Positions 29,873-33,477 of a stretch of 64,000 nucleotides of DNA are shown here, piece by piece. The translations under genes were made by a program, and so were the position numbers. Numbering within the stretch: the stretch's first letter is position 1; each line of letters begins with the position of its first letter. This stretch comes from Vibrio japonicus (GTDB lineage Bacteria > Pseudomonadota > Gammaproteobacteria > Enterobacterales > Vibrionaceae): positions 248,001 through 312,000 of the forward strand of contig NZ_CP102096.1 of the NCBI RefSeq assembly GCF_024582835.1, read 5' to 3'. The notes beneath the pieces were generated by a model. That model did not search any database. It was not told the DNA's origin and saw nothing but the letters and a program-made list of their open reading frames with translations.

Positions 29873-29948
29873 GCGACACTAGCTCAGTTGGTAGAGCGCA
29901 ACCTTGCCAAGGTTGAGGTCACGAGTTCGAACCTCGTGTGTCGCTCCA
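29873..29948 (+). tRNA. tRNA-Gly (GCC), array copy 1, intact
   Basis: 76 bases, acceptor GCGACAC paired with GTGTCGC, anticodon loop TTGCCAA, T arm ACGAG-TTCGAAC-CTCGT, encoded CCA. Confidence 0.96.
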
Positions 29949-29987
29949 ATTTGATAGCCTTCATCGTGCTTAACGGTGAAATACGGA

Positions 29988-30064
<77 letters not shown>

Positions 30065-30082
30065 ATTCTCTTACGAGAATAT

Positions 30083-30158
30083 GCGACACTAGCTCAGTTG
30101 GTAGAGCGCAACCTTGCCAAGGTTGAGGTCACGAGTTCGAACCTCGTGTGTCGCTCCA
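30083..30158 (+). tRNA. tRNA-Gly (GCC), array copy 2, intact
   Basis: Identical in sequence to copy 1. The spacer before it carries the small hairpin ATTCTC-TTAC-GAGAAT. Confidence 0.96.
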
Positions 30159-30197
30159 ATTTGATAGCTCTCATCGTGCTTAACGGTGAAACACGGA

Positions 30198-30274
<77 letters not shown>

Positions 30275-30292
30275 ATTCTCTTATGAGAATAT

Positions 30293-30368
30293 GCGACACT
30301 AGCTCAGTTGGTAGAGCGCAACCTTGCCAAGGTTGAGGTCACGAGTTCGAACCTCGTGTGTCGCTCCA
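30293..30368 (+). tRNA. tRNA-Gly (GCC), array copy 3, intact
   Basis: Identical to copies 1 and 2, with complete T arm and encoded CCA. Confidence 0.96.
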
Positions 30369-30406
30369 ATTTGATAGCCTTCATCGTGCTTAACGGTGAA
30401 TACGGA

Positions 30407-30483
<77 letters not shown>

Positions 30484-30501
30484 ATTCTCTTACGAGAATA
30501 T

Positions 30502-30591
30502 GCGACACTAGCTCAGTTGGTAGAGCGCAACCTTGCTAAGGTTGAGGTCACGCCTGTTTTTTATAAATAGGGAACCTCGTGTGTCGCTCCA
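30502..30591 (+). pseudogene. Degenerate tRNA-Gly-like unit, array copy 4
   Basis: 90 bases. The acceptor and D arms and the CCA end are intact. The 5' T-stem strand and T loop are replaced by an A/T-rich segment running from GCCTGTTTT to AATAGGGAACC, so no normal T arm can form. The anticodon loop is TTGCTAA, i.e. GCT, which would read serine codons. Probably not a working glycine tRNA. Confidence 0.75.
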
Positions 30592-30630
30592 ATTTGATAG
30601 CTCTCATCGTGCTTAACGATGAAACACGGA

Positions 30631-30707
<77 letters not shown>

Positions 30708-30725
30708 ATTCTCTTATGAGAGTAT

Positions 30726-30815
30726 GCGACACTAGCTCAGTTGGTAGAGCACAACCTTACCAAGGTTGAGGTCACGCCTTTTTTTTATGAATAGGGAACC
30801 TCATGTGTCGCTCCA
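30726..30815 (+). pseudogene. Degenerate tRNA-Gly-like unit, array copy 5
   Basis: 90 bases with the same T-arm replacement as copy 4 (here GCC followed by eight T, then ATGAATAGGG). The anticodon loop is TTACCAA (ACC). CTCATG replaces CTCGTG in the 3' T strand. CCA is still present. Confidence 0.75.
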
Positions 30816-30853
30816 ATTTGATAGCCTTCATCGTGCTTAACGGTGAATACGGA

Positions 30854-30930
<77 letters not shown>

Positions 30931-30948
30931 ATTCTCTTATGAGAATAT

Positions 30949-31038
30949 GCGACACTAGCTCAGTTGGTAGAGCGCAACCTTACCAAGGTTGAGGTCACAC
31001 CTTTTTGTTATGAATAGGGAACCTCGTGTGTCGTTCCA
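30949..31038 (+). pseudogene. Degenerate tRNA-Gly-like unit, array copy 6
   Basis: 90 bases with the T-arm replacement (ACACCTTTTTGTTATGAATAG), anticodon ACC, and a G1-U72 acceptor end (GTGTCGT before TCCA). Confidence 0.75.
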
Positions 31039-31077
31039 ATTTGATAGCCTTCATCGTGCTTAACGGTGAAATACGGA

Positions 31078-31154
<77 letters not shown>

Positions 31155-31172
31155 ATTCTCTTATGAGAATAT

Positions 31173-31248
31173 GCGACACTAGCTCAGTTGGTAGAGCGCA
31201 ACCTTGCCAAGGTTGAGGTCACGAGTTCGAACCTCGTGTGTCGCTCCA
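31173..31248 (+). tRNA. tRNA-Gly (GCC), array copy 7, intact
   Basis: Identical to copy 1, with intact T arm and CCA, although it follows three damaged units. Confidence 0.96.
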
Positions 31249-31285
31249 ATTTGATAGCTCTCATTGTGCTTAACGATGAAAAAAT

Positions 31286-31361
31286 GCGACACTAGCTCAG
31301 TTGGTAGAGCGCAACCTTGCCAAGGTTGAGGTCACGAGTTCGAACCTCGTGTGTCGCTCCA
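31286..31361 (+). tRNA. tRNA-Gly (GCC), array copy 8, intact
   Basis: Identical to copy 1. It is preceded by the Gly-type spacer with the perfect hairpin arms TCAT(C/T)G and CGATGA. Confidence 0.96.
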
Positions 31362-31397
31362 ATTTGATAGCTCTCATCGTGCTTAACGATGAAAAAT

Positions 31398-31473
31398 GCG
31401 ACACTAGCTCAGTTGGTAGAGCGCAACCTTGCCAAGGTTGAGGTCACGAGTTCGAACCTCGTGTGTCGCTCCA
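31398..31473 (+). tRNA. tRNA-Gly (GCC), array copy 9, intact
   Basis: Identical to copy 1; last intact unit of the array. Confidence 0.96.
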
Positions 31474-31508
31474 ATTTGATAGCCTTCATCGTGCTTAACG
31501 TTGAAAAA

Positions 31509-31595
31509 TCGACACTAGCTCCGTTTATAGAGCGCAATCTTACCAAGGTTGAGGTCACGCCTTTTTGTTATAAATAGGGAACCTCGTGTGTCGCT
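31509..31595 (+). pseudogene. Degenerate tRNA-Gly-like unit, array copy 10 (end of array)
   Basis: The most decayed unit. The first base of the acceptor is lost (TCGACAC), the D loop reads CCGTTTATAG with no GG, the anticodon is ACC, the shared T-arm replacement is present, and the 3' end is TATAAA instead of TCCA. Confidence 0.8.
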
Positions 31596-31701
31596 ATAAA
31601 CTCTTCTTCAAATGATAAACACATTTGAAATTGGTCACCATGATATGACCGCCGCTCTTTACTCTAATGCTGAGAAGCATCAACCCAAAATTAAAATAAG
31701 T

Positions 31702-31727
31702 CCTCCTGTTTTCAGGTGGGCGTTTTT
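31702..31727 (+). terminator. Likely terminator of the tRNA array
   Basis: CCTCCTG-TTTT-CAGGTGGG hairpin with one mismatch, followed by CGTTTTT, about 105 bases after the last tRNA-like unit. Confidence 0.65.
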
Positions 31728-31765
31728 ATGTCTCTAGTATCTGACCTGAACGGGATGTGATCACG

Positions 31766-32107
31766 TGTGAATAGGTGATGGCGAACTAATGTGAGCTAGG
31801 TATTCATATGACAATCAACAGACTTATCCACAAAATTATGTTTGTGGATAACTTGGTGGGTAACCTGATTTTACCCACTGTATAAAGTCATAATAAAAAG
31901 ATCTTTTGGTAATTTACCGCTTTGTTTTTGGTAGAGAGTTGATTTTAAGTTGTTGTTTTTATTGTGGTTCCATCTTTTATTGTAAGTGTAAAATGGCGTC
32001 TTTAACGATCGTTAAGTGATTGTTTATTGATCCTAGTCATTTGTTATCGATGTGATTAACTTCTTTATCTACACCAAAACAAGCCACCTTGCCGATTTTT
32101 TTCCACA
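31766..32107. promoter_or_regulatory. Cluster of DnaA boxes, candidate datA-like locus
   Basis: The 563-base gene-free stretch 31596-32158 contains two perfect DnaA boxes facing each other, TTATCCACA at 31824-31832 and TGTGGATAA at 31843-31851, inside an 11-bp inverted repeat. A third consensus-type box is TTTTCCACA at 32099-32107. One-mismatch boxes are at 31766-31774 (TGTGAATAG, minus) and 32065-32073 (TTATCTACA). A second perfect inverted repeat, GTGGGTAA with TTACCCAC, lies at 31856-31878. In E. coli the DnaA-titrating locus datA lies between glyVXY and queG, exactly this position. Function is inferred from boxes plus synteny; I found no clear IHF site. Confidence 0.55.
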
Positions 32108-32158
32108 TTTTCATTTTTAGAGCTGAATCATGCTTTGTAACGCTATTTCAGGCAGGGT

Positions 32159-33277
32159 TTATGCATCTCTAGGTAATCCCTTTTGGACAATCCTAATTAG
32201 CCGTTGATGGCTGTTTGAAAGAGCCTGCTGTGGAAGCTGAGAGTGTTGCTGATCAATTGCCCATTGAATATGCGCGTCCAATACGTCACTTAGCCCTTTC
32301 CTTGATTCTAAAGCGTCAATAATCGCTTGCGAGTAGGGGGCATTGCCCATAGCAACTGATAGGTTTCTCATCCATTGGATATGACCGATGCGCCTGATTG
32401 CGGAACCTTCCATATTTTTTAAAAATGTGTCTTCTTCCCAAAGAAATAATTCTACTAAATCTGGATGTTTAAGAGCATTTCTACGATGGAAGTCATCCTG
32501 CTCTGTCAGCTCTGAAAAACGATTCCATGGGCAAACCAATTGGCAGTCGTCGCATCCGTATATCCGGTTCCCCAGCGCTTTACGAAACTCTTCTGGGATA
32601 ACACCATCATATTCAATGGTGAGATATGAAATACAGCGTCTTGCGTCTACAACACCATCTTCTACAATGGCTTGAGTTGGGCAAGATGTGATGCAAGCTT
32701 TGCATTTACCACAGTCGCCTTGGTGAGCGTCGTCGACAGGTAGAGGCAGATCAATCAGTAACTCACCTAAGAAAAACCAAGAACCGCACTCTTTATCTAA
32801 AATAAGTGAGTGTTTCCCTGTCCAGCCTAATCCTGCTTTTTGCGCTAATGGACGCTCTAAAATGGGAGCGGAATCCACAAATGGTCGGTAACCAAATTTT
32901 CCGACCTCTTGTTCAATTTTTTGACCGAGTTTCTTTAATTGGTTTCTTACTAGCTTGTGGTAATCCCTACCCAACGCGTAGCGGCTAATATACGCTTGAG
33001 TCGCATTCGACAGATTAGAGGCAAATTGTGCTTCAGGAGGTAAATAGTCCATCCGAGCACTAATGACACGCACGGTGCCGGGTAAGAGTTCGTTGGGGCG
33101 AGCACGCATCATTCCATGACGTGCCATCCAGTCCATTTCTCCATGGTAGCCTGCGTCTAGCCATTTTTGTAAAGCACCTTCATGCTCGCTTAGGTCTACA
33201 TCGCAGATCCCAACTTTTTGGAATCCAAGCTCTTGGGCCCAAACTTTGATCTTGTTTGCAAGCTCTTGGTAGTTCAT
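32159..33277 (-). CDS. queG: Epoxyqueuosine reductase
   Basis: QueG reduces epoxyqueuosine to queuosine in tRNA using cobalamin and two [4Fe-4S] clusters. The 372-residue form starts MNYQELANKIKVWAQELGFQ, aligned with E. coli LNQLAQKIKQWGLELGFQ. It has the RPFVDSAPILERPLA block and two cluster motifs, CGKCKACITSCP and CDDCQLVCPWN. The C terminus IRIVQKGLPRDA is typical. The frame is open to 33352, but those extra residues are not conserved. It is divergent from tsaE. The nnr gene that sits between these two in E. coli is absent. Confidence 0.95.
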   Translation of the reverse strand: MNYQELANKIKVWAQELGFQKVGICDVDLSEHEGALQKWLDAGYHGEMDWMARHGMMRARPNELLPGTVRVISARMDYLPPEAQFASNLSNATQAYISRYALGRDYHKLVRNQLKKLGQKIEQEVGKFGYRPFVDSAPILERPLAQKAGLGWTGKHSLILDKECGSWFFLGELLIDLPLPVDDAHQGDCGKCKACITSCPTQAIVEDGVVDARRCISYLTIEYDGVIPEEFRKALGNRIYGCDDCQLVCPWNRFSELTEQDDFHRRNALKHPDLVELFLWEEDTFLKNMEGSAIRRIGHIQWMRNLSVAMGNAPYSQAIIDALESRKGLSDVLDAHIQWAIDQQHSQLPQQALSNSHQRLIRIVQKGLPRDA

Positions 33278-33477
33278 GCTGGCTGCTCTGGTGAAATGGG
33301 TGGCGGATCTTAACGGATCTTTTGGCAGGGATCTAGCCAATAAAATCGACAATATCGTAAAGAAATTGCTGTTTTTGGCTTTTACTTACACAACAGATCT
33401 TGTCTCTCAATTCCAACCCAGTTTACTATTCCTGTTCTTTTGAGTTTTATATAGTCACAGATTAGAGATTGATCTTC

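Follow-up and report, generated by a model that had tools for sequence, protein, structure and literature searches.

A candidate datA-type DnaA control element between tRNA-Gly genes and queG in the Vibrionaceae

The region at about positions 31812 to 32107 of the window (the whole 64,000-nucleotide stretch of the Vibrio japonicus genome that was analysed) is, as judged from its sequence, probably a DnaA-IHF nucleoprotein site and a control element of the datA type, the counterpart in the Vibrionaceae of Escherichia coli datA with an architecture of its own. It includes a pair of DnaA boxes that face each other near the 3' end of queG, and this pair was found in 127 of the 130 Vibrionaceae genomes examined, with its orientation kept and its spacing constant to within 1 bp.

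The element is flanked on one side by a tRNA array at 29873..31473 on the forward strand, in which ARAGORN calls six tRNA-Gly (gcc) and six tRNA-Met (cat) genes transcribed toward the element, and on the other by queG (32159..33295, reverse strand), which has its 3' end toward the element. From the last tRNA-like unit, which is degenerate, to the stop codon of queG there is neither a tRNA called by ARAGORN nor an open reading frame of at least 60 amino acids, which agrees with the gene-free gap described in an earlier sequence-only reading of this DNA. The tRNA array is followed by a terminator-like hairpin with an imperfect stem and a T run (31700..31727, forward strand), which was recognised by eye and does not appear in the output of a consensus terminator scan. 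Two further tRNA-Gly-like units, at 31010-31033 and 31555-31595, were not called by ARAGORN, and have CCTTTTTGTTATRAATAGGGAA in place of the T arm and TTACCAA as the anticodon loop. A hairpin-like sequence, TTAATGCTGAGAAGCATCA, is located at 31664-31683, after the last tRNA-like unit and ahead of the terminator-like stem, and shows about 0.84 identity across Vibrio.

The five DnaA boxes named in the sequence-only reading are all present, at 31824 (forward), 31843 (reverse), 32099 (forward), 31766 (reverse) and 32065 (forward), the last two being the one-mismatch boxes CTATTCACA and TTATCTACA, respectively. The facing pair consists of B1 (31824..31832, forward strand) and B2 (31843..31851, reverse strand), both of which are perfect TTATCCACA boxes separated by a 10-bp spacer, and the box at 32099..32107, here B4, is TTTTCCACA and points in the same direction as B1. 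Several further features had not been listed. A weak box, CAATCAACA, with three mismatches in the window, lies on the forward strand 3 bp before B1 (31812..31820), and a weak mirror box, TTACCCACC, with two mismatches, lies on the reverse strand 3 bp past B2 (31855..31863). An IHF-like site on the reverse strand at 31946..31958, AAACAACAACTTA, differs by one mismatch from WATCARNNNNTTR, and a reverse box-like sequence with one mismatch, TTAATCACA, here B3, is found at 32051..32059. GATC sites are found at 31900..31903 (+76 from B1; present in 65 of the 127 genomes with the pair, and in 48 of 51 of the genus Vibrio) and as a pair 22 bp apart (32007 and 32029) within a conserved block at 32004..32063 that runs into B3.

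Boxes matching TTATNCACA with up to one mismatch occur in the window at the density expected by chance (62 matches against 63.6 expected), and the weight of the argument therefore rests on the perfect facing pair at 31824/31843. In the genome of 4,235,444 bases, TTATCCACA was counted 47 times (23 on the forward and 24 on the reverse strand), which gives a frequency of about one per 90 kb, where once per 130 kb had been assumed for a perfect box. Facing pairs of TTATCCACA within 30 bp are expected about 0.004 times per genome, and the pattern TTATCCACA-N9/10-TGTGGRTAA has a single occurrence in this genome, which is the pair in question. The earlier claim that the inverted pair is unlikely to be accidental is thus upheld, and a chance cluster of boxes is ruled out by the genome-wide counts, the uniqueness of the pattern and the conservation of the pair across the family. 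The motif TTGATCYTNRTCAT has three exact occurrences in the genome, one of them in the element, and another 36 that differ by one mismatch.

Other groupings of DnaA boxes were observed in the same genome. A second perfect facing pair, with a 5-bp spacer, is located on chromosome 1 at C1:1749506-1749528 (TTATCCACA-5 bp-TGTGGATAA) and forms a DARS-like palindrome; such palindromes recur in many of the Vibrio genomes listed, and TTATCCAC-N6-TGTGGATAA of some kind is found in 61 of 61. A further cluster lies within C1:136500-139500 (positions 1369-1585 of that segment), where two perfect TTATCCACA boxes 178 bp apart are accompanied by one-mismatch boxes, and seems to occupy the gap between rpoH and glpE, the gene names being assigned by eye.

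To assess conservation, 150 Vibrionaceae genomes were searched, 147 of which gave a queG match, and 130 of these 147 gaps were examined. A pair was counted in the sequence that follows queG at its 3' end where each box had at most one mismatch and the two starts were 18 or 19 apart. By genus, the pair was present in 51 of 51 Vibrio, 13 of 13 of the group that includes Aliivibrio fischeri (g11), 40 of 41 of the group that includes Photobacterium (g8), 11 of 11 of the group that includes Enterovibrio (g3), all five of g10 and, in the other genera together, 7 of 9, and the three genomes without it are G129 (g8), G011 (g12) and G001 (g2). The distance between the starts is 19 in 110 genomes and 18 in 17. 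Both boxes are free of mismatches to TTWTNCACA in 76 of the 127 and both are TTATCCACA in 74, with the second box being TTATCCACA in 75 and TTACCCACA in 48. The pair lies 216-1077 bp from the queG stop (median 305) and in 112 of the 127 genomes has queG on one side and a called tRNA on the other, the sequence piece having no called tRNA in the remaining 15. All 32 named Vibrionaceae loci among the matches listed fit a looser anchor for the pair; these overlap with the set of 130 and were not counted again.

The alignment of the queG gap across the Vibrionaceae proposed in the sequence-only reading shows the pair to be conserved in orientation and, to within 1 bp, in spacing. Of its five boxes, the facing pair and the box at 32099 are conserved, but those at 31766 and 32065 are not, a box being found within 5 bp of these positions in only 2/50 and 1/50 other Vibrio genomes, respectively. 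Among 247 genomes drawn from the order, in which Vibrio and g11 are the only Vibrionaceae genera, the facing pattern with a spacer of 9-10 bp was found in 17/17 Vibrio, in the single g11 genome and in 1/229 genomes outside the family; the sole carrier of the latter kind, G204, has it within an oriC-like stretch. No perfect TTATCCACA was found between 350 bp before and 70 bp after the queG stop in seven non-enterobacterial loci outside the family (Shewanella 2, Psychromonas 2, Pseudoalteromonas, Bowmanella and Rheinheimera), which came from the 27 loci viewed among the 48 extra-family ones in a listing of at least 80 named loci.

The remaining parts of the element are conserved to differing degrees across the 127 genomes. 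The weak forward box, starting 12 bp before B1, has at most two mismatches in 82/127 and at most three in 124/127, against backgrounds of 1.9% and 8.6%, and the weak mirror box, starting 12 bp after B2, reaches the same thresholds in 53/127 and 115/127. An IHF-like match on the minus strand with at most one mismatch starts at +118 to +126 in 92/127 genomes, 13 of these being perfect. In the loci with enough sequence it is present in 90/125, whereas other 9-bp windows have a median of 2 loci and the next highest regions 15. It is found in 48/51 of the genus Vibrio, and the 35/127 genomes without a match at this threshold are mostly outside Vibrio, the site being present in 3/11 of g3, 0/2 of g6, 1/5 of g10 and 6/13 of g11. 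The reverse box B3, as TGTGNNTAA, occurs at +205 to +239 in 126/127, and the forward box B4 follows 47-48 bp after B3, also in 126/127, with 124 showing no mismatch to TTWTNCACA and two showing one. The GATC pair 22 bp apart is present in 66/127. It occurs in 51/51 Vibrio and 13/13 g11 and also in g4 and g9, and is absent from all 40 g8 genomes with the facing boxes. Among 51 Vibrio sequences, conservation peaks at 31814-31863, 31944-31963, 32004-32063, about 32094-32103 and the upstream hairpin-like 31664-31683, and is low in between.

The position of the element is shared with E. coli datA, the DDAH locus and a brake on replication, as had been claimed: the gap between glyVXY and queG has a tRNA-Gly (GCC) operon on one side and the 3' end of queG on the other. 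In E. coli K-12 (NC_000913.3), datA comprises a weak box TTGTAAACA, a 3-bp gap, TTATCCACA and an IHF site TAACCTATTGATA at +65; further on, TTATTCACA is found at +162, which is 97 beyond the start of the IHF site, and is faced 12 bp on by TCATCCACA, inside the end of queG. The distance from the origin is similar as well, being 10.3% of chromosome 1 from an oriC1 recognised by sequence inspection in V. japonicus, and 10.1% of the chromosome from oriC in E. coli. The essential core of E. coli datA is described as box 7, box 2, the IHF site and box 3, with all boxes in one direction (PMC5742627, in the passages available). In the Vibrionaceae element, the same order and direction of weak box (with its 3-bp gap), box 2, IHF site and box 3 are observed, with the weak box at 31812 corresponding to box 7, B1 to box 2, and B4 to box 3 by its order, direction and nearness to queG. 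As in E. coli, the high-affinity boxes 2 and 3 and the low-affinity box 7, which in the window is a weak box with three mismatches, all point one way. The search for an IHF site that had been suggested yielded a single IHF-like sequence between the boxes matching boxes 2 and 3, in the same orientation as that of E. coli datA, the likeness being one of sequence match with one mismatch in the window. A mapping of B1 onto box 3 of E. coli datA was rejected on the box order in the passages available from PMC5742627.

The spacings, however, differ from those of K-12, with 122 against 65 from box 2 to the IHF site and 153 against 97 from the IHF site to box 3, and the E. coli spacings are reported to be important in the portion of PMC4585315 available. 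Among the enterobacterial loci viewed whose IHF match is perfect, the IHF site starts 64-67 bp after TTATCCACA in 9/10, and at 46 in Proteus. Unlike E. coli datA, the Vibrio element has the extra facing box B2, 10 bp after box 2 and without a counterpart in E. coli, together with its weak mirror box; the conserved reverse box B3 in the Vibrionaceae and the GATC pair in the genus Vibrio are likewise additional. A blastn comparison with E. coli datA returned just 15/16 bases around box 2 (E 0.05), a motif also present at other DnaA boxes. The proposal of a Vibrio datA therefore holds for location, box order and direction, origin distance and the IHF-like site, but is borne out just partly, since two of the five boxes are unconserved, the E. 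coli spacings are not matched, the inverted pair is not a trait of E. coli datA and the function is a predicted one. We regard the datA-type reading as probable rather than firmer because these spacings differ, part of the family lacks the IHF-like site at the threshold used and facing boxes are a trait of DARS elements.

By analogy with E. coli we infer that DnaA and IHF would both bind to the element. At a distance from oriC1 of about 10% of the chromosome, the locus would be copied early after initiation. A bend introduced by IHF could then bring together B4 and, at the other end, B1 and its weak upstream partner, all of them forward boxes, and ATP-DnaA might form oligomers there and hydrolyse its ATP, by which re-initiation on chromosome 1 would be damped. 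At the B1 end, the facing B2 also has a weak mirror partner, so that two opposed pairs, four DnaA molecules in all, could start to assemble there. In the genus Vibrio, the GATC pair beside B3 could add control by Dam and SeqA. Read-through from the tRNA promoter has been reported to switch IHF binding at E. coli datA (PMC10950094, in the sections available), and gene order and direction would permit read-through from the tRNA operon to unload IHF here in the same manner.

A passive titration site, which would hold several DnaA molecules early in the cycle without promoting ATP hydrolysis, might equally be expected to have high-affinity boxes clustered near the origin, and the spacings that E. 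coli requires for hydrolysis are not kept. Such a site would not, however, need an IHF-like site, spacings and box directions that are fixed across the family, and we consider it improbable that titration is all that the element does.

The facing boxes are also what would be expected of a DARS-type element, in which such a pair drives the release of ADP from DnaA and raises the level of ATP-DnaA. Facing boxes are described as a trait of DARS (PMC5742627 and PMC8682772, in the passages available), and the core arrangement given in the available part of the former, a facing pair backed at 3 bp by a weak third box, is found in the Vibrionaceae element as it is in the E. coli DARS1 and DARS2 cores, whose sequences were compared here with a box assignment made in this analysis. 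The spacer, however, is 5 bp in these E. coli cores and 9-10 bp in all 127 of the elements, a difference of about half a helical turn, and the element lies beside neither uvrB nor mutH. V. japonicus moreover has cores of its own with 5-bp spacers, a DARS1-like one upstream of uvrB (C1:819046) and a DARS2-like one with one mismatch between rppH and mutH (C1:2248737), so that the DARS seats are already filled and the element sits at the seat of datA. Identity with DARS is ruled out by the spacer length and by these separate cores, and a DARS-type activity of the facing pair itself seems unlikely. For V. cholerae, DARS-like sites have been published before (PMC6090056; PMC8682772, legend of Figure 8; both in excerpt).

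A different DARS-like core, TTATCCACTGTTTTTGTGGATAA, with a 5-bp spacer, was observed on contig 2 (C2:62900-62922), which carries ori2-like repeats, next to a gene for an FtsX-like permease. A like core adjoins a homologous FtsX-like permease gene in 10/10 checked loci of that kind, and this DnaA-reactivation-like site on chromosome 2 deserves separate study.

It is far less probable that the element controls chromosome 2 in the manner of RctB or crtS sites, or that it is a SeqA/Dam site with DnaA boxes of secondary importance. The GATC pair 22 bp apart, present throughout Vibrio and g11 as given above, would suit such a role, as would the GATC within RctB iterons (PMC11711613, in the part available), and crtS is likewise a site on chromosome 1 tied to replication control. 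The element differs in location, with crtS placed between VC0764 and VC0765 in the published excerpt available, and the 40 g8 genomes with the facing boxes do not contain the GATC pair. The RctB motifs are not conserved, TGATCA being present in 33/127 and TTACGG in 2/127 elements, by which identity with an RctB or crtS site is set aside, although this motif test is not exhaustive, as three published RctB regions, crtS included, contain neither motif in the excerpts available.

With oriC1 of Vibrio the element shares DnaA boxes and GATC sites, and the oriC-like stretch of G204 contains a perfect facing pair as well. No AT-rich 13-mer series was recognised in the element, however, and blastn against the oriC1-like region of V. 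japonicus gave box-sized matches only, on which account a kinship of the GATC block with oriC, suggested by the letters of E. coli oriC, was set aside.

The least probable alternative is an RNA hairpin that would terminate or attenuate transcription of the tRNA operon or belong to a small RNA. A hairpin or terminator was named in the sequence-only reading as a possible refutation, and the hairpin would draw on arms that reach 11 bp in the window and on the position downstream of the tRNA array. However, none of the stem columns varies on both sides in the 127 genomes, the first base pair beyond the arms does not match in 106/127 (17% paired against 46% in shuffles), spacer positions pair no more than in shuffles, one genome has a C-A mismatch within the arms, no T run follows the pair, a terminator scan of 31300-32300 was empty, Rfam returned tRNA only plus one match far below its gathering score, and conservation extends 240 bp past the pair. 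A terminator or hairpin is ruled out by the missing covariation, the mispaired flanks, the terminator scan and the Rfam search, and nothing suggests a selected RNA hairpin. The bases that flank the facing boxes (31823 and 31852) are C/C in 47 and G/G in 42 of the 127 genomes, with pairing rarer than in shuffles, a pattern reminiscent of repeated inversion of the segment that the boxes enclose.

On a speculative reading that we hold to be unlikely, the element would be a two-way DnaA switch of the Vibrionaceae, in which a datA-like arm (forward boxes, IHF bend and ATP hydrolysis) is combined with the DARS-like facing pair and, in the genus Vibrio, with a GATC pair that would let Dam methylation and SeqA set its state after passage of the fork. 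Such a switch would time both the re-initiation of chromosome 1 and the schedule from crtS to chromosome 2, and would be unlike any E. coli element.

No recognisable description of datA in Vibrio was found in the open-licence literature searched, which leaves out the original datA papers (e.g., PMC3549119) and in which an earlier mention could therefore be missed. RctB sites on chromosome 2 have been likened to datA (PMC3937223 and PMC6090056, in the passages available). Since the IHF-like site and the directions of the boxes are conserved and the E. coli spacings are not, some 130 natural variants could be used to ask which geometry DnaA-ATP hydrolysis needs, and the facing pair raises the question of what role a head-to-head DnaA dimer may have at a site of hydrolysis. 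If the datA-type reading is true, there would be a brake on chromosome 1 that is unmentioned in the available portions of the Vibrio papers cited here, and control of DnaA of the datA type would predate the Enterobacteriaceae and extend to a two-chromosome family whose chromosome 2 awaits a site on chromosome 1.
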